Shown here piece by piece: positions 6,841 through 45,604 of a stretch of 59,310 bases of DNA. Under the pieces are notes generated by a model. The model did not search any database. It saw only the letters and a program-made list of their open reading frames with translations, and was not told the origin of the DNA. The translations under genes were made by a program, and so were the position numbers. The first letter of the stretch is position 1, and each line of letters begins with the position of its first letter. Source of the DNA: a virus; the IMG/VR virus record IMGVR_UViG_3300009161_000051, positions 1-59,310 of that record, one strand, 5' to 3'.

Positions 6841-7647
6841 ATGCCAATAAAACTTAGAGGCTCGACATCTGGCGATATAACCCTAACAGCAGCGGCTGTA
6901 GCAGGGACTAATACGCTTACGCTTCCGGCTGTAACTGACACGCTTGTAGGTCTAGCGGCTACACAGACGCTTACTGGCAAGACGTTGACGGGTGCTACCT
7001 TATCAGCAGGAACAACAACAGTCGCTCCGTTAGATTTTACATCTGGAACAAATCTGACATCCGCCCTTGCTGGTGCAATAGAATATGATGGCAAGGTATT
7101 TTATGGAACCCCGCAAGGCACACAGCGCGGCGTAATTCCGGGGATGCAGTTCTTTCGGCTGAACGCTGATCTTGCAGGCGCAAACGTCAGCACGGTGCAA
7201 AGTGTGTTTGGTGTTAGCGTCACGTTGTCTGCCTCAACGGTGTATGCTTTTGAGGCCATATACTATTTTAACAAAACAGTAGGCGCAACAGCGCACACCG
7301 TTGGTATTGGGTTTGGTGGAACGGCAACACTTAACAGCGTTCTTTACGGCGGCATTGCTTTTGATGGGGTTACTCCGCTTCCAACAAGAGCAAGCTCAGG
7401 AACTTCACAAATAGCTTCTGCTTCTGCTGCAAATTTAACAATTACCGGACCAATAGCTAATGCTGCCTTAACAATTTTTTCAAGTATTAAAGGCATTGTC
7501 AGCATCAATGGCGGCGGTACATTCACGCCTCAGTACACGCTCTCTGCTGCTCCCGGCGGTGCGTACAGCACTATGGCAAATAGCTACTTCTTGATCTACC
7601 CAATCGGTGCATCTGGGGCTAACGTCAACGTAGGAACATGGGCATGA
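6841..7647 (+). CDS. Tail fibre or fibre tip protein
   Basis: 268 residues. The first 60 form a Thr-rich module (LRGSTSGDITLTAAAVAGTN followed by ATQTLTGKTLTGATL) that is shared with the protein at 8938. A compact, more varied C-terminal domain follows, with aromatic and beta-like segments (STVYAFEAIYYFNKTVG, GVTPLPTRASSGTSQ), which may be the receptor-binding head. It starts 13 bases after the large fibre and overlaps the next gene by 10 bases. Confidence 0.7.
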   Translation: MPIKLRGSTSGDITLTAAAVAGTNTLTLPAVTDTLVGLAATQTLTGKTLTGATLSAGTTTVAPLDFTSGTNLTSALAGAIEYDGKVFYGTPQGTQRGVIPGMQFFRLNADLAGANVSTVQSVFGVSVTLSASTVYAFEAIYYFNKTVGATAHTVGIGFGGTATLNSVLYGGIAFDGVTPLPTRASSGTSQIASASAANLTITGPIANAALTIFSSIKGIVSINGGGTFTPQYTLSAAPGGAYSTMANSYFLIYPIGASGANVNVGTWA

Positions 7648-8513
7648 CGGTAACAATTAACGGAACTACAGGTATAGCTGGTGTTGATGGCTCTGCTGCT
7701 ACTCCAGCAGTGCAGGGTGCTGATACCAACACGGGTATCTTCTTTCCTGCCGCTGATACGATTGCCTTCACTGAAGGCGGTGCGGAAGCGATGCGGATTA
7801 ACTCGTCTGGTCAGGTAGGGATTGGGACGACTACGCCAAACGCTAATCTTGAGGTGTCTGGGACGGCTACGGCGGTAAATATTACTAGATACTCAACAGA
7901 TACTGGTGTTTCAAGTTTAGTCTTTAGAAAATCTCGCGGGACTGAAGCGTCCCCAACAATAATTTCTTCTGGCGATAACATTGGTTCAATTTTGTTCCAA
8001 GGATATGACGGGAGTAGTTTTAGTAATGCGGCTCAAATATTGGTTCAATGTGCCGCAACCCCCGGAGCAACCGATATGCCGGGAAATATGTTATTCCGCG
8101 TATCGCCAGATGGATCAGCAACTGTTGTCAATCAAGCATCACTTAGTTCGGCAGGGCTATTCTCATTCAATTCCGGCTACGGCTCGGCAGCGGTGGCATA
8201 CGGCTGCCGTGCGTGGGTAAACTTTGATGGCACGGGAACACCTGCTATCCGTGCTAGTGGCAATGTTACAAGTATTACGGATGGTGGGACTGGAATATTT
8301 ACATTGAATTTTGCAACAGCACTAGTTGACACTAATTATGCTTTTGTATCGACAACTAGCGGTTCTGCAACTGGCAGTGCTAGTTTTAGATCAGCAGGCG
8401 GTAGCCAAGGAAGAGATTATGCTACTACGTCGGTTACATTACTTTGCTTTGCTATTGATAGTGCTAATAATGCTGATGATCCAGTTTTAGCCAATGTTGC
8501 AATATTTAGGTAA
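7638..8513 (+). CDS. Tail fibre protein with GIGTTTPNANLEVSG motif
   Basis: 291 residues. Typical fibre phrases are visible: GVDGSAATPAVQGADTNTGI, FFPAADTIAFTEGGAEAMRI and SSGQVGIGTTTPNANLEVSG, often seen in fibres that carry chaperone tips in other phages. Here the C-terminal part (from residue 180) has no S74 signature. The ATG at 7638 has AGGAAC upstream; an ATG two codons later is also possible. Confidence 0.7.
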   Translation: MGMTVTINGTTGIAGVDGSAATPAVQGADTNTGIFFPAADTIAFTEGGAEAMRINSSGQVGIGTTTPNANLEVSGTATAVNITRYSTDTGVSSLVFRKSRGTEASPTIISSGDNIGSILFQGYDGSSFSNAAQILVQCAATPGATDMPGNMLFRVSPDGSATVVNQASLSSAGLFSFNSGYGSAAVAYGCRAWVNFDGTGTPAIRASGNVTSITDGGTGIFTLNFATALVDTNYAFVSTTSGSATGSASFRSAGGSQGRDYATTSVTLLCFAIDSANNADDPVLANVAIFR

Positions 8514-27152: not shown

Positions 27153-27368
27153 ATGAGCGTTTCAGATACGATGAGAGATTTGGAGAACTTTGCTAAGGAA
27201 AGTGCCAAGCGTTGTGGAAGCCCAACTTCTGCTTCACAACATAGTTACGCCTACGGTTATATGGTCGGGTTCTTGGAAAATTTTATTCGGGATCAGAGTG
27301 TAGAAGTTCAGAAGAACTTTGAAAATGAAGTTGAAGCTAGAAAAAAATTATATAGTGAGGACGCTTGA
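27153..27368 (+). CDS. Small unknown protein
   Basis: 71 residues. The ATG at 27153 has AAGGAG at eight bases; longer frames upstream overlap the DnaA-like gene and lack a ribosome site. Sequence MSVSDTMRDLENFAKESAKR, with a helical C-terminus (NFENEVEARKKLYSEDA). No recognised family. Controlled by the promoter at 27082. Confidence 0.65.
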   Translation: MSVSDTMRDLENFAKESAKRCGSPTSASQHSYAYGYMVGFLENFIRDQSVEVQKNFENEVEARKKLYSEDA

Positions 27369-27393
27369 CAGCAATGCCAAGCTCAAGTACTGT
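27365..27393 (+). promoter_or_regulatory. Family-like promoter (27 kb, second copy)
   Basis: TTGACA (27365-27370) overlaps the previous stop; 17-base spacer containing CCAAGCTCAAG; TACTGT (27388-27393). The spacer holds AAGCTCAAG, the reverse complement of the CTTGAGCT core in other copies. A leader hairpin GCCC-AA-GGGC follows. Confidence 0.5.
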
Positions 27394-27440
27394 CACTTTA
27401 TCGACAACAGCCCAAGGGCAACAAAACAAGGACAACGACC

Positions 27441-33566: not shown

Positions 33567-33578
33567 TTCAAAATGCTA

Positions 33579-33607
33579 TTGACCTACATCTAGAGCTATG
33601 CCACAAA
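33579..33607 (+). promoter_or_regulatory. Family promoter (33.6 kb)
   Basis: TTGACC (33579-33584), spacer TACATCTAGAGCTATGC, CACAAA (33602-33607). Leader hairpin GGGCC-AC-GGCCC follows, then the GGAGAACCACA leader. Confidence 0.65.
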
Positions 33608-33653
33608 AGGCTATCAACAACAGGGCCACGGCCCAAACCAACGGAGAACCACA

Positions 33654-37404: not shown

Positions 37405-37533
37405 ATGGCGTGGATCGATGCATGGATGGCGGCGTGGGCGGTGCAGAAGGCGATCCTGCATTGGTGGTTTGGAATCGGGTGGGTGACTATCAGCATAGCC
37501 GTCCTGAAGGTATTGAGGTGGCGTGATGTTTGA
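37405..37533 (+). CDS. Trp-rich single-TM micro-protein
   Basis: 42 residues (MAWIDAWMAAWAVQKAILHW then WFGIGWVTISIAVLKVLRWR), with seven Trp and one long membrane helix ending in basic residues. It overlaps the large terminase start by eight bases. A holin-like or membrane-disrupting peptide is possible. Confidence 0.45.
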   Translation: MAWIDAWMAAWAVQKAILHWWFGIGWVTISIAVLKVLRWRDV

Positions 37534-39205
37534 CCCGTCTGCGCTGTCAGTGGACGCGATGAAGGCTGTCGTCCTTAATCTGGAGAAGGAGCGACTGGAG
37601 AAGAGCTTGTATGACTTCACGGTGGCGGCATGGAGGCACGTTGACAGCGCACCCTTTGCTCACGGTGGCTTTGCTCTACAGGCTGTGTGCGAGCATCTGG
37701 AGGCTTGTGTGGATGGGCATATCCGCAACCTGATCATCAACATCCCGCCGAGGTTTAGTAAATCTACCATCACAGGCACGATGCTTCCGGCGTGGACGTG
37801 GGCGCAGAGGCTCGACAGCCCGACATCCGGCGCAGGTGTCCAGTTCTTACACAGTGGGTATGCTCTCAACCTGTCACTGCAAGACAGCGTCAAGTGTCGT
37901 CGGCTGATGACATCAAGGTGGTATCAGCGCAGGTGGGGCGACCGCTTCAAGCTACTGGGTGACCAGAACACCAAGACCCGCTTTGAGAACGACCGCAACG
38001 GTATCCGCAACACCGTATCGGTTGGATCGGCGACCACAGGTCTGGGCGGTGCGTTCTTGATTGCGGACGATCCTAACAATGCGCAGGAGGCCAACAGCGA
38101 GGCGATCATCACGTCAACCAATGAATGGTGGGACATGGCGTGGAGTACTCGCCTGAATGACCCTAAAACGGGGTGCAGGATCGTCGTACAGCAGAGGCTT
38201 TCAGAGCAGGATATCACGGGGCATATCCTGTCCAAGGATGTTGGTGAGTGGACGCACCTGATGTTGCCTATGCGGTTTGAACCGGAGCGGCGCATCTACA
38301 CGGTATTAGTTCCTGCTGATATGACGGATGACGGTGAGGCGGTTGTGTGGACTGATCCCCGTGAGACAGCGGGGGAGCTACTGTGGCCTGAGCGGTTTGG
38401 CGAGAGCGAGATCGACCTGTTGGAGCGGACACTTGGACCGTATGCGGCGGCGGGGCAATTGCAACAGCGTCCTGAACCTGCGGGTGGCGGCATCATCAAG
38501 CGTGTGTGGTGGGAGCCGTGGGAGACGGAGCAGTTTCCCGACATGGAGTTTATCGTTGCGAGTGTTGATACGGCTTACGGGGCCAAGGAGCATGAGGGTG
38601 ACTTCAGCGCGATGACGGTATGGGGCGTGTGGCGTGACAGCGGTGAGACGACAGCGGTTGCGTCGAGGAACGGTGCGTATGCCAGTGTGACGAGCCGCAT
38701 TGAGAAGGCTAATGTGGAGGCTGACGTTCCCAAAGTGATGCTGATGTTTGCATGGCAACAGAGGTTAGAACTGCATGAGCTTGTGACCAAGATTGGGGAC
38801 ACGTGTAGGAAGCTCAAGGTTGATCTGTTGTTGGTTGAGAACAAGGCATCTGGGATTAGTGTTGCGCAGGAGATCAGGCGCATCTTTGGTGCTGAGACAT
38901 TTGGCGTGAGATTGATTGACCCCAAGGGGATCGACAAGGTCAGCCGTACGTATGCGATCCAGCATTTGTTTAGTGAAGGACTGATTCATGCACCTGTGGA
39001 TCGTGTTTGGTGCGATATGGTTATTACGCAGTCTGCGCAGTTTCCCAAGGCAAAGCATGATGACTTGCATGACACGGCGACACAGGCTCTTTCATGGTTG
39101 CGTCAGAGCGGGATGATACAGCGTGGTGCTGAACGGACTGCTGAGTTGGCTGACAGTAAATTGTTTAGGGGCAACACTAACGATTTGCCATTGTACCCTG
39201 TTTAA
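37526..39205 (+). CDS. terL: Terminase large subunit
   Basis: 559 residues from the ATG at 37526 (a GTG three bases earlier is possible). ATPase: Walker A-like INIPPRFSKST (about 72-82), Walker B-like FLIADDP (177-183). Nuclease: ASVDTAYG (Asp348), LLVENKASG (Glu438), and KHDDLHDTATQA (Asp512-513). This is the Terminase_6-type motor that packages and cuts phage DNA. It follows the small subunit gene. Confidence 0.95.
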   Translation: MFDPSALSVDAMKAVVLNLEKERLEKSLYDFTVAAWRHVDSAPFAHGGFALQAVCEHLEACVDGHIRNLIINIPPRFSKSTITGTMLPAWTWAQRLDSPTSGAGVQFLHSGYALNLSLQDSVKCRRLMTSRWYQRRWGDRFKLLGDQNTKTRFENDRNGIRNTVSVGSATTGLGGAFLIADDPNNAQEANSEAIITSTNEWWDMAWSTRLNDPKTGCRIVVQQRLSEQDITGHILSKDVGEWTHLMLPMRFEPERRIYTVLVPADMTDDGEAVVWTDPRETAGELLWPERFGESEIDLLERTLGPYAAAGQLQQRPEPAGGGIIKRVWWEPWETEQFPDMEFIVASVDTAYGAKEHEGDFSAMTVWGVWRDSGETTAVASRNGAYASVTSRIEKANVEADVPKVMLMFAWQQRLELHELVTKIGDTCRKLKVDLLLVENKASGISVAQEIRRIFGAETFGVRLIDPKGIDKVSRTYAIQHLFSEGLIHAPVDRVWCDMVITQSAQFPKAKHDDLHDTATQALSWLRQSGMIQRGAERTAELADSKLFRGNTNDLPLYPV

Positions 39206-39243
39206 TTGCATGGTATGTAAACACCTCAATTGGGAGGTTGTTT

Positions 39244-39513
39244 ATGGAAGACATTGTCAGCAGATTACGCACTTTGAATTTTATGGGGCCGTGGGCAGAG
39301 GCAGCGGATGAGATTGAGCGGTTGCGGGAAGCGTTGGAAACCTTTGCTAATAATGTAAAAGAAACAAACGAGGGGATTGATGAAAATTGGTCCAAGACAA
39401 TCTATCCATTAAAAGCAGAGAACCAAAGGTTGCGGGAAGAGATTGCGCTTCTTAATTCAATGATACAAACAGAACATACAATTATCCGTGCCGCATTGAA
39501 GGAGGTTAAGTGA
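39244..39513 (+). CDS. MDIVxRLR paralogue 1
   Basis: 89 residues, helical and acidic (MEDIVSRLRTLNFMGPWAEA, ADEIERLREALETF). First of five adjacent genes sharing the pattern MxDIVxxL(R) at the start, AADEIERLRE in the middle and A-L-K at the end. It probably forms coiled coils. GGGAGG lies before the start inside a small hairpin (CACCTC pairs with GAGG), which could mask the ribosome site. Confidence 0.7.
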   Translation: MEDIVSRLRTLNFMGPWAEAADEIERLREALETFANNVKETNEGIDENWSKTIYPLKAENQRLREEIALLNSMIQTEHTIIRAALKEVK

Positions 39514-39761
39514 TGGATATTGTTGAACGATTGCTTTTGTTGGCGGATGAAAAAAATTCCAACAAAGTATTGAGATTGGTTGATGAAGTTGCAGTTAAGG
39601 CCGCTGAAGAAATTATAGGGCTGCGAGATACTTTGGAGAACATTTTAAAAATCCCCAACAGTGAAGCGGCTCAAGGAATTATAAAAGTATTAGCTCGTGC
39701 AGCACTTGGGTTTGATGACCGCCGTCGTGATGATCGCGGTGATAACTTGGATGGGAACTGA
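39513..39761 (+). CDS. MDIVxRLR paralogue 2
   Basis: 82 residues (MDIVERLLLLADEKNSNKVL; then VKAAEEIIGLRDTLENIL). The ATG shares its first base with the previous stop (TGATGG). C-terminus is different from the others (DRRRDDRGDNLDGN). Same helical architecture. Confidence 0.65.
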   Translation: MDIVERLLLLADEKNSNKVLRLVDEVAVKAAEEIIGLRDTLENILKIPNSEAAQGIIKVLARAALGFDDRRRDDRGDNLDGN

Positions 39762-39764
39762 GTG

Positions 39765-40001
39765 ATGACTGACATTGTAGACAGATTGAGAACCGTTGAC
39801 ATCAGTTGGAGTCAAGAAGCTGAGTGGTGTGCCGAGGCAGCCGACGAGATCATCAAGCTACGGGAAGACAAACAACTAGCATTTGAATTGATGGACGTGT
39901 TTATTAAAGAAACCAATCGAGTAAAGAAAGTGCTTCACCGGATTGCTAAGATGCAGTCAGCACAGAAAATAGCACAAGACGCACTGAAGGAGAAAGAGTG
40001 A
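39765..40001 (+). CDS. MDIVxRLR paralogue 3
   Basis: 78 residues (MTDIVDRLRTVDISWSQEAE; then AADEIIKLREDKQLAFELMD). The end DALKEKE is encoded by GCACTGAAGGAGAAAGAG, which also contains the AAGGAG ribosome site for the next gene. Confidence 0.7.
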   Translation: MTDIVDRLRTVDISWSQEAEWCAEAADEIIKLREDKQLAFELMDVFIKETNRVKKVLHRIAKMQSAQKIAQDALKEKE

Positions 40002-40204
40002 TGGATATTGTTGAAGAACTTAGGATAATGGCTCCATATTATCCAACTCAAGGGATAGCCGCTGACGAGATTGAGCGGTTGCGGGAAGTATTAGGAATGT
40101 GGTTGCGCTATAGCAAATCTGATTATGATGACCACGCACAGATGATTATTGATTGGTCTGAAGCAGAGGCCGCCACAAAGGCCGCACTAAAGGAGAAAGA
40201 GTGA
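40001..40204 (+). CDS. MDIVxRLR paralogue 4
   Basis: 67 residues (MDIVEELRIMAPYYPTQGIA; then ADEIERLREVLGMWLRYSKS). It ends AALKEKE with the same embedded ribosome site, and overlaps the neighbouring genes by one base each (TGATG). Confidence 0.7.
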   Translation: MDIVEELRIMAPYYPTQGIAADEIERLREVLGMWLRYSKSDYDDHAQMIIDWSEAEAATKAALKEKE

Positions 40205-40533
40205 TGTTTGGAATGCCATCAACCAAACGTGAAGGACAAACCATGCTGAATATGTGCATGGAACAATGTGAAGGCGTCTACTTAATGGATGAGATTGAAC
40301 GGTTGCGGTTAGCTAACTCAGACCTTCAGATGCACTATGATTATGCCAAGGATGAGGTTTTAAAACTTGAGGCAGAAGTTAATCGTATGCGCTACGCATT
40401 GGATAAATACGATTGCCTTCACAGATGTACCGAGCCATGCGCTTTATATGCAATGGAAAAAGAACGCGAGAATGATTTCCCGCATATGATTTGCGGGTGG
40501 TGGGCATCTTCTGCGTTAAAGGAGAAAGAGTGA
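40204..40533 (+). CDS. MDIVxRLR-related paralogue 5, longer
   Basis: 109 residues. The start differs (MFGMPSTKREGQTMLNMCME) but MDEIERLRLANSDLQMHYDY and the end SALKEKE match the family. It includes Cys-containing DCLHRCTEPCALYAM. A mosaic of the array with a new head. Confidence 0.65.
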   Translation: MFGMPSTKREGQTMLNMCMEQCEGVYLMDEIERLRLANSDLQMHYDYAKDEVLKLEAEVNRMRYALDKYDCLHRCTEPCALYAMEKERENDFPHMICGWWASSALKEKE

Positions 40534-40858: not shown

Positions 40859-41013
40859 TGGCGACAAAAAAGAAAGGCATTCTCACATCAGCACCGCAGT
40901 GGTGGGATCATCTGAAGGACTGGAAGAAAGTATTTTGGAGCGCAGAACGCAATGCCGTTAAAAGAGAAATTGAAAAAGAACTTAGAAACTCAAGAAATAA
41001 GGGAGACTACTGA
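40858..41013 (+). CDS. Small basic protein
   Basis: 51 residues (MATKKKGILTSAPQWWDHLK, then VFWSAERNAVKREIEKELRN). Basic, helical. One-base overlap with both neighbours. Similar short TSAPQWWKHLK proteins occur in phages, role unknown. Confidence 0.6.
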   Translation: MATKKKGILTSAPQWWDHLKDWKKVFWSAERNAVKREIEKELRNSRNKGDY

Positions 41014-41645
41014 TGAATGTGGAAGATATTTTAATTGAAGACCTAGAACTTAGCACAAGACTGCACAATTGTCTCTTGAATGACAATCTTAAAACAATTG
41101 GAGACGTTCTTAAAATATCGCAAGAAAAAATGTTAAGATCACCTAATTTTGGAAGAAGATGTTTAAATGAACTTAAACAAGTATTGTTTGAACATAAAGT
41201 TCTATGGCCCAGTACTAAAAGCGGTGAAGAAATTCAGCTAACAAAAGAAGAACGTAGCATTGAAACTAGGAGACGGTGGAAAAAAGCTTACGTTTTGCAT
41301 CAGGCGGGATGGGACTGGAGTTCAATTGGCAAAGAATTAGAAGTTTCAAAACTTTCAGCAAAATCAATGGCTAAGAAATATCGTAAAGAACATGATATTC
41401 CAATTATTCCTGTTCCTATATGTTGGAAACCAATATCAACAGCACCAAGAAATGGAACAGCTTTTTTAGGAGCAAAATACTTTGGCTACACGATTGGTTG
41501 GCAACGGTACATATGCGTGTGGCATAACCCAACATCACAATTTGCAGCGTGTTTTAGTATTGCTGAAGGAGGTGAATTGTATCCTTTAAATGAAAAAAGT
41601 TTTCCAAGCCATTGGATGGCATTACCGGAGCCACCAAATGTCTGA
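41013..41645 (+). CDS. RNA polymerase alpha C-terminal-domain-like protein fused to HTH and DUF551-like domain
   Basis: 210 residues. Residues 5-60 (EDLELSTRLHNCLLNDNLKT, GDVLKISQEKM, SPNFGRRCLNELKQVL) match the alpha-CTD of bacterial RNA polymerase, retaining the equivalents of DNA-contacting Arg265 and Asn268 and a basic pair at 298. A middle HTH-like part (GWDWSSIGKELEVSKLSAKS) follows, then WKPISTAPRNGTAFLGAK...HWMALPEPP, similar to DUF551. A free alpha-CTD could compete with the host subunit at UP elements or sites of activators. Confidence 0.7.
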   Translation: MNVEDILIEDLELSTRLHNCLLNDNLKTIGDVLKISQEKMLRSPNFGRRCLNELKQVLFEHKVLWPSTKSGEEIQLTKEERSIETRRRWKKAYVLHQAGWDWSSIGKELEVSKLSAKSMAKKYRKEHDIPIIPVPICWKPISTAPRNGTAFLGAKYFGYTIGWQRYICVWHNPTSQFAACFSIAEGGELYPLNEKSFPSHWMALPEPPNV

Positions 41646-41874
41646 TGAAGCATTATTAGCTGACGGGTTTGAAGAAGCCTTGATCGGTATGGGGCGGCAA
41701 TTCAACCAAGACCTTGCCGTATATGATTTTGACAAGTGCGTTGAAATCTTGATGAAGCGTGATGGCATGGATTATCACGATGCCTGTGAGTTTATGGAAT
41801 ACAATGTGGTTGGTGCATGGGTTGGACCTGCAACACCTGTGTTTGTAGAGATAGGTAAGGAGCCTTCAGAATGA
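41638..41874 (+). CDS. Unknown small phage protein
   Basis: 78 residues (ADGFEEALIGMGRQFNQDLA, then VYDFDKCVEILMKRDGMDYH). This resembles small phage proteins with DxxEExxGxxxxF and FDxxxC patterns, role unknown. Overlaps the alpha-CTD-like gene by eight bases. Confidence 0.7.
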   Translation: MSDEALLADGFEEALIGMGRQFNQDLAVYDFDKCVEILMKRDGMDYHDACEFMEYNVVGAWVGPATPVFVEIGKEPSE

Positions 41875-42017
41875 AAGAACCAAAGAACCTAAAACAAGAA
41901 CGCAATGATCAGATTAAAAAAGACCGTGGTGATGGCATGACGTTTGCTGAACTTGCTGCAAAGTATGGCATATCTAAAACTAGGGCGAGAAATATATGTG
42001 TGCCAAGTTATTATTGA
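41871..42017 (+). CDS. Small HTH protein
   Basis: 48 residues. RNDQIKKDRGDGMTFAELAA, KYGISKTRARNICVPSYY reads as one HTH of the sigma-70 region 4 or Mor type. Overlaps the previous stop by four bases. Last gene before the structured gap. Confidence 0.65.
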   Translation: MKEPKNLKQERNDQIKKDRGDGMTFAELAAKYGISKTRARNICVPSYY

Positions 42018-42063
42018 AAATAATGGTTTTCATCTCGCGTAAATAATGGTATTGAATATTTAC

Positions 42064-42219
42064 GTCACGTATAAGGGAAACACCCCTGCATCCGCGACGG
42101 CAACGGGCAAGTGAGAGGCAATTTTAGGGGTTTACTCATGCACCTGAGATGCTGTGGCACTACAAGACAAAGTTCTGGCCTAATACGTGACAAACAACTG
42201 CATACCAGTGAAACTTTGT
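42064..42219 (+). ncRNA. Candidate structured RNA with interleaved (pseudoknot) pairings
   Basis: In the 233-base gap 42018-42250: GTCACGTAT (42064-42072) pairs perfectly with ATACGTGAC (42183-42191); ACAAAGTT (42167-42174) with AACTTTGT (42212-42219). The second helix encloses the 3' strand of the first, giving a pseudoknot. Inside are ACCCCT/AGGGGT (42082-42087/42126-42131), CCG-CGA-CGG and CTCA-N6-TGAG, plus ACTG-CATAC-CAGT (42197-42209). GTCAC at 42225-42229 can pair with GTGAC (42187-42191) instead. No good frame in the gap. Not assigned to a known family. Confidence 0.65.
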
Positions 42220-42250
42220 AAGCCGTCACTAACTTAAACAAGGAAACAAA

Positions 42251-42625
42251 ATGAGCAATTTATTAGACAGACGACATGAAACACACGGCAATTTCCACGA
42301 GGTTGCAAAAATTTCAATGGGGATTAAAAAGTTAATTGAATTAAGCCCTAACGCAAAAAAGTTGACTGATTCTCAATTAGAATCGTTAAGTATGATTTCA
42401 AGCAAAATTGCTAGGATTTTGTGTGGCAATTCAAGTTACCGTGATCATTGGGATGACATTGCAGGTTACGCTGAACTTGGTGCGTCAGGGACTGTTAGCG
42501 TTCCTGATCAGATAGAACGCGACATTGCCGCTGTAGTTAATCATCTACAGGAAACAAGCGATGAAAAATTCCCGGACATTGTTACTAAACGCCGTGGATA
42601 TTTTAAATCTGGTGAAGAAAAATGA
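42251..42625 (+). CDS. DUF6378-like phage protein
   Basis: 124 residues. Pattern LDRRHETHGNFHEVAKISMG, then LTDSQLESLSMISSKIARIL and YRDHWDDIAGYAELGASG fits a phage family that I associate with DUF6378, often encoded near dNTP or replication genes. His/Asp residues suggest a metal-dependent, HD- or MazG-like helical fold, but function is unknown. AAGGAAAC precedes the start, just after the structured RNA. Confidence 0.7.
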   Translation: MSNLLDRRHETHGNFHEVAKISMGIKKLIELSPNAKKLTDSQLESLSMISSKIARILCGNSSYRDHWDDIAGYAELGASGTVSVPDQIERDIAAVVNHLQETSDEKFPDIVTKRRGYFKSGEEK

Positions 42626-43324: not shown

Positions 43325-45604
43325 ATGGCTGGACTTGTCCCTAATATCCGCCTCGTAGAAGACGCCCCCCAAGACGTTCCTACTGAAGGAATGGACGTTG
43401 TTGTAGTTGAAAACTCTGATCCAGAGGGCGATAACCTACAATACGATGAAAACGGTAATGTTTTGCGGATTGAACACGATGATGGATCAATCAGCGTGTC
43501 ATTGGACGGGCGTCCTATTAAATCCAACGATAAAGACACGCCGGAAAACTGGTTTGACAATCTTGCCGACGATATGAGCGAGATGGAACTCAGCAGGATT
43601 ACTGAAGACCTTTTGCGAGGCATTGGAGAAGACATAGAGAGCCGCAAGGACTGGATTGAGGACAGAGCGCAGGGATTGCGCCTTCTTGGTCTCAAAATTG
43701 AACTGCCGGGCCTACAGGGTTCCGCAGACGGCGCACCAATTGAAGGCATGAGCAAGATCAGGCATCCGTTGCTTTTAGAAGCCGTGCTGCGTTTTCAAGC
43801 TAATGCGCGTTCTGAGTTACTGCCTACTGACGGGCCTGTTAAAATCAGGAACGACGACACAAACGGTTCACCTGAAGAAGACAAACAAGCTGAAGACTTA
43901 GAAAAAGATTTCAATCATTATCTGACGGTTACGGCTAAAGAGTATTACCCAGATACGGACAAAATGTTGTTTATGCTTGGCTTTGGCGGATCAGCGTTCA
44001 AGAAAGTTTATTTCTGTCCGTTAAGAAATCGTCCTGTATCTGAAACTGTTGATGCGGATGATCTGATTGTAAACAATCAAGCTACTGATCTTGGAAATGC
44101 TCGCCGTATTACGCACAGGATTATGATGCGCCCGTCCGTTGTAAAGCGGATGCAGATCATTGGCGCATATCGTGATTGCGATCTTGGTCAGGCTGTTGCA
44201 AAGACGCCTAATGCAATTCAACAGGAAAAGAACGCACAGCAGGGCATTCAGCAAGATGTAAAATCTTCTGAAGATCGTGATCGTGAGATTTATGAGTGCT
44301 ACTGTGAACTTGATATCCAAGGCTACGAGCATACCATTGATGGTGAGCCTTCAGGTCTTGAAGTCCCATACCGTGTGACGGTTGACGTATCTTCCAAAAA
44401 GATTTTAAGCGTTGTCCGCAATTACGATGAGGATGAAGAACTTCCAGAAGCCAAGACAACATTTGTAAAGTGGGATTTTATCCCCGGTCTAGGTTTCTAC
44501 GGTATTGGTTTGCTTCACATTCTTGGCAATACGACAAATGCCCTGACAGCTACATGGCGTGAGCTTCTTGACGCAGGTATGTACGCAAATTTCCCCGGCT
44601 TCTTGTATGCAAAGGCGAGTGGTCGGCAGAACACAAACATTTTCCGTGTTCCTCCCGGTGGCGGCGCACAGATTGATACGTCAGGTATGCCGATACAACA
44701 GGCTGTCATGCCTTTGCCGTACAAAGAGCCTTCAGGCGCACTGATGCAGTTGTCTGAAAACATGAGCCAATACGGTCAACGTGTTGGTGGTACTGCCGAG
44801 ATGAATGTTGGAGAAGGTCGTCAAGATGCACCTGTTGGAACAACGCTTGCGATCATTGAACAAGCGCAAAAGGTTCTCAACAGCGTTCATAAGCGGATGC
44901 ATTCAGCACAGGCGGATGAGTTTCAACTTCTTGCACAGTGCTTTAGGGAGAACCCAACATCGTTTTGGGAACGCAACAAGCGTCCTGCAAAGAAATGGGA
45001 TGAACAGCAGTTTATAGCTGCTCTTGATAACTATTTGCTTGTTCCACAGGCTGATCCAAATACCGCATCGCACATCCAGCGCGTTATGAAGGTTACTGCT
45101 TTGATACAGTTGGCAAAAGAAGCACCACAGCTTTACAACATTGAAGCTGTCAATAAAGAAGCCTTGATTGCCCTTGGCTGGTCTAATCCTACAAGCCTGT
45201 TGCGTGATCAAGCAGAGCAGACTCCTCCTCCTCCAGAGGAAATGGCAAAGATGGCGGAAGCTCAAGCTAAAATGATTACGGCTCAAGCCAAGATTGCTGA
45301 AGTTCAAAGCGGCGGCGTTGGTGTACCAATGGACCCGGCAAAGGTGCAGATGGAACAGGCTGCAAATGAAGTAAAGCTGGCTGAGATCAAACAGCGTTCT
45401 ATTGATGCACAGTTGGACGCCATGAACCGTAAGCGCGACAGGGAAAGCCGTGAGAGAATCGCTACAGTGAAACTAGCTGAAACTATTGCAGAAAAACCTG
45501 AATCGATGGGCATCATGGACGGGATCATTAAACCTGATATGCTTACTCGTCTTGAAGGAAATGAAGAACCGTTTACACCAAATCCAGATGGCATTGTTAA
45601 GTAA
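43325..45604 (+). CDS. Portal protein
   Basis: 759 residues, the size of P22-type portals. Acidic head, then TEDLLRGIGEDIESRKDWIE, GLKIELPGLQGSADGAPIEG, MSKIRHPLLLEAVLRFQANA and LPTDGPVKIRNDDT; later KWDFIPGLGFYGIGLLHILG and EMNVGEGRQDAPVGTTLAII, characteristic of portal proteins of marine and alphaproteobacterial short-tailed phages. A coiled-coil C-terminus (EVKLAEIKQRSIDAQLDAMN) likely forms the barrel. It is the head entry ring for DNA packaging. First gene of the late block. Confidence 0.9.
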   Translation: MAGLVPNIRLVEDAPQDVPTEGMDVVVVENSDPEGDNLQYDENGNVLRIEHDDGSISVSLDGRPIKSNDKDTPENWFDNLADDMSEMELSRITEDLLRGIGEDIESRKDWIEDRAQGLRLLGLKIELPGLQGSADGAPIEGMSKIRHPLLLEAVLRFQANARSELLPTDGPVKIRNDDTNGSPEEDKQAEDLEKDFNHYLTVTAKEYYPDTDKMLFMLGFGGSAFKKVYFCPLRNRPVSETVDADDLIVNNQATDLGNARRITHRIMMRPSVVKRMQIIGAYRDCDLGQAVAKTPNAIQQEKNAQQGIQQDVKSSEDRDREIYECYCELDIQGYEHTIDGEPSGLEVPYRVTVDVSSKKILSVVRNYDEDEELPEAKTTFVKWDFIPGLGFYGIGLLHILGNTTNALTATWRELLDAGMYANFPGFLYAKASGRQNTNIFRVPPGGGAQIDTSGMPIQQAVMPLPYKEPSGALMQLSENMSQYGQRVGGTAEMNVGEGRQDAPVGTTLAIIEQAQKVLNSVHKRMHSAQADEFQLLAQCFRENPTSFWERNKRPAKKWDEQQFIAALDNYLLVPQADPNTASHIQRVMKVTALIQLAKEAPQLYNIEAVNKEALIALGWSNPTSLLRDQAEQTPPPPEEMAKMAEAQAKMITAQAKIAEVQSGGVGVPMDPAKVQMEQAANEVKLAEIKQRSIDAQLDAMNRKRDRESRERIATVKLAETIAEKPESMGIMDGIIKPDMLTRLEGNEEPFTPNPDGIVK

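Follow-up and report, generated by a model that had tools for sequence, protein, structure and literature searches.

The gap and its genomic setting

The window, the whole stretch of DNA that was analysed, comprises the 59,310 bases of virus record IMGVR_UViG_3300009161_000051. It encodes an uncultivated, freshwater tailed phage, with genes for the terminase large subunit (37523-39205), the portal (43325-45604) and others. The ORF list shows the interval between terminase and portal to be an array of short, tightly packed genes, and this interval is a variable accessory-gene region in which genes are turning over. Within it, on the plus strand, lies a gene-free gap of 233 nt (42018-42250). Its extent was as given in the initial annotation, and it holds no recognisable gene by the ORF list. 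An intact conserved reading frame running through it, which would speak against a non-coding role, was not seen, and domain scans in six frames found no protein domain.

The gap is flanked upstream by a gene for a 48-aa HTH protein (41871-42017), which ends right at the gap and shows weak matches to sigma-70 region 4 and to late activators, all family matches being partial. Downstream lies a 124-aa gene (42251-42625), DUF6378-like on a sub-threshold match, whose ribosome site and start are formed by AAGGAAACAAAATG (42240-42253, plus strand). ORFs on both sides of the gap are complete and none looks split, though for the 48-aa HTH protein this is judged on partial family matches.

Other parts of the window carry features of their own. 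In a 210-aa protein (41013-41645), Pfam identifies the C-terminal domain of RNA polymerase alpha (PF03118, E 5e-17), with a weak DUF551 match at the protein's end; this phage-encoded alpha-CTD could affect host transcription. The small genes at 39238-40533 have a DEIERLRE-type motif in common as well as similar start and end sequences, and are apparently duplicated; pieces like this array recur in the terminase-portal region of relatives. Two intergenic stretches (27360-27440 and 33577-33653) have the same layout of TTGAC..., ATC(G/A)ACAACAG, a small GC hairpin (GCCCAAGGGC / GGGCCACGGCCC) and, last, a ribosome site; they are apparently copies of one promoter-plus-leader hairpin that is repeated in this phage.

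The composition of the gap is uneven. The first 46 nt (42018-42063, plus strand) are AT-rich, with a GC content of 26% that falls in the lowest 1.5% of 46-nt windows, and may represent a promoter or operator. In this segment the direct repeat AAATAATGGTWTT occurs twice at a spacing of 23 nt, and positions 42038-42045 and 42057-42064 form an inverted repeat of 8 bp. The core that follows (42064-42191, 128 nt) has 51.6% GC compared to 37-39% in the flanking genes, although 11% of local 166-nt windows are equally GC-rich. A GC-rich core within AT-rich surroundings can mark a structured RNA. Here the contrast is a mild hint of an RNA, or just of foreign or decayed sequence.

Base pairing within the gap

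The pairings described in the initial annotation are present to the letter. In the longest helix, GTCACGTAT (42064-42072) pairs with ATACGTGAC (42183-42191) at 9 of 9 positions. Past one A.A mismatch the helix extends by AGG (42074-42076) with CCT (42179-42181), giving 12 of 13 pairs between the strands GTCACGTATAAGG (42064-42076) and CCTAATACGTGAC (42179-42191), both read on the plus strand. The second helix interleaves with the first and is an uninterrupted A-T-rich duplex, in which the plus-strand segments ACAAAGTT (42167-42174) and AACTTTGT (42212-42219) pair at 8 of 8 positions. For the 6-bp G/C-rich helix there are two candidates. ACCCCT (42082-42087) pairs with AGGGGT (42126-42131) inside the 9-bp helix, while GACGGC (42096-42101) pairs with GCCGTC (42222-42227), both on the plus strand, so as to enclose the 8-bp helix and interleave with the 9-bp helix; by stacking energy, the latter candidate and the 9-bp helix form the most stable interleaved pair in the gap. 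A small plus-strand hairpin, ACTG-CATAC-CAGT (42197-42209), sits between the two 3' strands, and GTCAC, the strand proposed as an alternative pairing partner, is found at 42225-42229.

Comparison with shuffled and genomic controls

Dinucleotide shuffling of the gap gave a perfect Watson-Crick 9-bp helix interleaved with a perfect 8-bp helix in 0.4% of cases. Among 233-nt windows of this genome the frequency was 0.76%, at which about two such helix pairs are expected in 59 kb. Stacking energy gave a different picture. Interleaved pairs that equalled or exceeded the described one in stability were found in 44% of the shuffles and in 62% of genome windows of the same length, and the best interleaved pair in the gap was matched or exceeded in 14% and 27%, respectively. 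Folding energy was ordinary, both for the gap and for the interval to which the initial annotation had assigned the RNA (z -1.07 and -0.77 compared to shuffles). In this test for a structured RNA, neither folding energy nor knot energy went beyond that of shuffled controls.

The helix pair is unusual by its uninterrupted Watson-Crick length only. The pattern is real but not clearly above chance, and the pairings are weak evidence of a functional RNA. Long perfect helices picked out by eye in a single sequence should be read with caution, as a couple of them are expected in a genome this large.

Search for homologues and known RNA families

At gathering thresholds, no Rfam family matched anywhere in the whole 59,310-nt window. 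At E<=10, no group I intron matched and the sole weak match of the gap was to the DUF2815 RNA (RF03084); it is located over the ribosome site and, with 15.9 bits against a gathering threshold of 41.2 and an E-value of 2.2, was attributed to chance. The Rfam search that the initial annotation had called for thus yielded no credible family.

The only other contigs that contain the gap are two from IMG/VR (L001 and L085), which are identical in it. These copies offer no sequence differences from which covariation in the helices could be read, and no diverged homologue was found in the collections searched. No homologous gap was present in the viral contigs examined among portal relatives, including those at 73% identity and below; in bacterial genome contigs, portal relatives were found at six loci, which belong to metagenome-assembled genomes of various taxa. 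An apparent gap at the right place in L003 proved to be a reading frame, and several further apparent gaps in portal relatives were likewise coding. Relatives of the downstream protein had no homologous gap upstream of them, and relatives of the proteins at 42251, 42622 and 41013 led to no diverged copy; the contig with a 90% relative of the 41013 protein (L127) ends before the gap.

Nucleotide searches were similarly unproductive. BLAST against phages, both near and distant, and against plasmids gave nothing meaningful, and within the whole virus records of relatives it gave short matches, the best one lying in a coding region. A DNA-pattern scan of the viral collection with both 9-bp arms recovered the identical copy L085; three other both-arm matches (L082-L084) were rejected as chance, as were two matches (L128, L129) to a pattern of the first arm plus GGG/CCCC. 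A covariance model built from the single sequence and run over 96 loci found itself and one weak match, L053 (18.6 bits, E 0.03), which is ascribed to chance because it sits inside an 871-aa reading frame. In the collections searched, nothing is homologous to the gap beyond the identical copies.

Alternative folds

The initial annotation had also proposed a switch-like alternative pairing. Over 42018-42262, a fold with the 9-bp helix (-54.6 kcal/mol) and a fold with the 8-bp and GACGGC/GCCGTC helices (-54.8 kcal/mol) are nearly equal in computed energy. The outcome depends on the assumed transcript ends: for transcripts starting at 42046, 42055 and 42064, the 9-bp helix pairs with a probability of 0.99, 0.53 and 0.90. 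Accessibility of the ribosome site tracked the folds inconsistently across the assumed ends. The strands are therefore present and both folds can be drawn, but a switch is not supported, since the winning fold is not robust to the choice of ends and the ribosome site does not follow it. Cis-acting phage leader RNAs and riboswitch-like 5' UTRs are the general kind of element suited for comparison. The gap resembles them in its position just upstream of a ribosome site and in its two competing folds; it differs in that it is without conserved sequence or homologues and in that ribosome-site accessibility does not consistently track the folds.

A covarying RNA in related phages

The terminase-portal region of several phages with related portals contains a GC-rich non-coding element of ∼300 nt (L037:6640-6955, L041:1705-2015, L030:1442-1750, L026:2883-3188, L035:6187-6500, L029:2602-2913, L067:4810-5105, plus copies). 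RNAalifold predicts 55 pairs for it, and 20 of the 55 show changes on both sides that keep the pairing. The copy in L037 gave one chance match and nothing else against Rfam at E up to 5, and the element had no match in the phage record collection. To all appearances, this covarying element is a structured RNA that has not been described.

Its 175-nt core served to build a covariance model (R2), which has matches in 7 of 78 portal-relative loci and in additional IMG/VR contigs. In the window, R2 gave nothing at E<=10 with filters, and with filters off its best score was 9.2 bits, outside the gap. Thus, while the gap lies in the same terminase-portal region, it matches the ∼300-nt RNA neither in sequence nor by covariance model and is not a member of it.

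A conserved hairpin module is located a few hundred nt upstream of the element (L029:2370-2470, L037:6410-6504, L035:5966-6057 and others) and consists of GATGCCCC...GGGGC, then CTGAACC...GGTTCAG. In L029 it starts right after TTGACA-16-TATTAT, which suggests that the RNA may be a gene of ∼500 nt with its own promoter. On the minus strand of L206, Rfam finds a CyVA-1 RNA (RF02965, 47.3 bits) at 7602-7679, ∼300 nt upstream of an R2 match (7129-7303) on the same strand, possibly as part of one transcript. L040, from a related phage, has a tRNA gene (1866-1937, 67.5 bits) just upstream of the portal.

Interpretation of the gap

The best explanation, which we hold at about an even chance, is that the gap is a non-coding leader or promoter segment whose knot is mostly coincidence. 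It would be the upstream region of the DUF6378-like gene and of those that follow as far as the portal. Its AT-rich first 46 nt would carry transcription or operator signals, with an untranslated leader making up the remainder; the position of the ribosome site AAGGAAAC is what suggests that the leader ends there. The long perfect helices would then mostly be coincidental pairings available to such a stretch. This reading draws on the ordinary folding energy, the commonness of equally stable helices, the lack of an Rfam family or homologous gap, the AT-rich start with its direct repeat, and a fold outcome that varies with the assumed transcript ends. Counting against it are the GC-rich core, the 0.4% rarity of the helix lengths and the structured RNAs that relatives keep in the same region, as well as a scan that revealed no sigma-70 consensus, and hence no recognisable promoter, on the plus strand of the gap. 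Overall, the sigma-70 scan gave fewer sites than expected by chance.

A possible but tentative alternative is a structured RNA specific to this lineage, which might be a small RNA or act in cis as a leader. The 12-pair helix would close a junction holding a long imperfect hairpin (∼42097-42155), the loop strand 42167-42174 would form a pseudoknot with the tail 42212-42219, and the RNA would regulate the genes downstream or be expressed along with them. The exact helices agree with this proposal, as does the GC-richer core after an AT-rich start, and modelling predicts a plausible junction fold once the 9-bp helix forms. We retain the proposal at this level because the RNA of the relatives raises the prior that the region hosts RNAs; other structured RNAs and a tRNA occur there. 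However, stability is no higher than in controls, the only homologues are identical copies and hence offer no covariation, and Rfam has no match. In its specific form, an orphan pseudoknotted phage RNA of no described family that regulates or accompanies the portal-side genes, with the 12-pair closing helix and the loop-tail knot, we regard the idea as rather doubtful.

It is unlikely that the gap is a decayed or truncated small gene, left over from the turnover of small genes and with pairings that arose by chance. The gap is surrounded by an array of short genes that are turning over, the GC content of the gap differs from that of its neighbours, and some frames have stop-free pieces of ∼20-48 codons. 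On the other hand, with stops masked, no frame on either strand scored above chance against PHROGs or Pfam. Very improbable is a role as DNA operators, in which GTCACGTAT and its inverted copy 119 bp downstream might bind a phage regulator such as the adjacent 48-aa HTH protein; the arms can be read as operator half-sites and the sigma-70 region-4-like gene ends right at the gap, but the window shows no enrichment of the 9-mer, as 9 matches with at most one mismatch compare to 8.3 expected.

Group I introns have a P7 helix with a guanosine-binding site, and their P3 and P7 strands are nearly adjacent. A P3-P8-P7 strand order with a small hairpin at the P8 position can be drawn in the gap, as the initial annotation had remarked while itself seeing no split gene and no clear guanosine-binding P7, but a degenerate form of this catalytic core (RF00028) can practically be dismissed, as 8 nt separate the P7-like and P3-like strands (42174 to 42183), the P7-like helix is a plain 8-bp duplex without the expected features, neither a P4-P6 pattern nor an exon junction in a split gene was found, and no covariance-model match appeared at E up to 10.

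Returning to the leader or promoter reading, we infer the role of the segment from its position and composition, and the knot and the switch within it are neither shown nor disproved. If the RNA proposal were true, the gap would join the orphan structured RNAs of uncultivated freshwater phages, and its interest would lie mainly in a broader tendency: phages of this group seem to keep structured RNAs between terminase and portal. The covarying RNA of the relatives is the firmer lead there.
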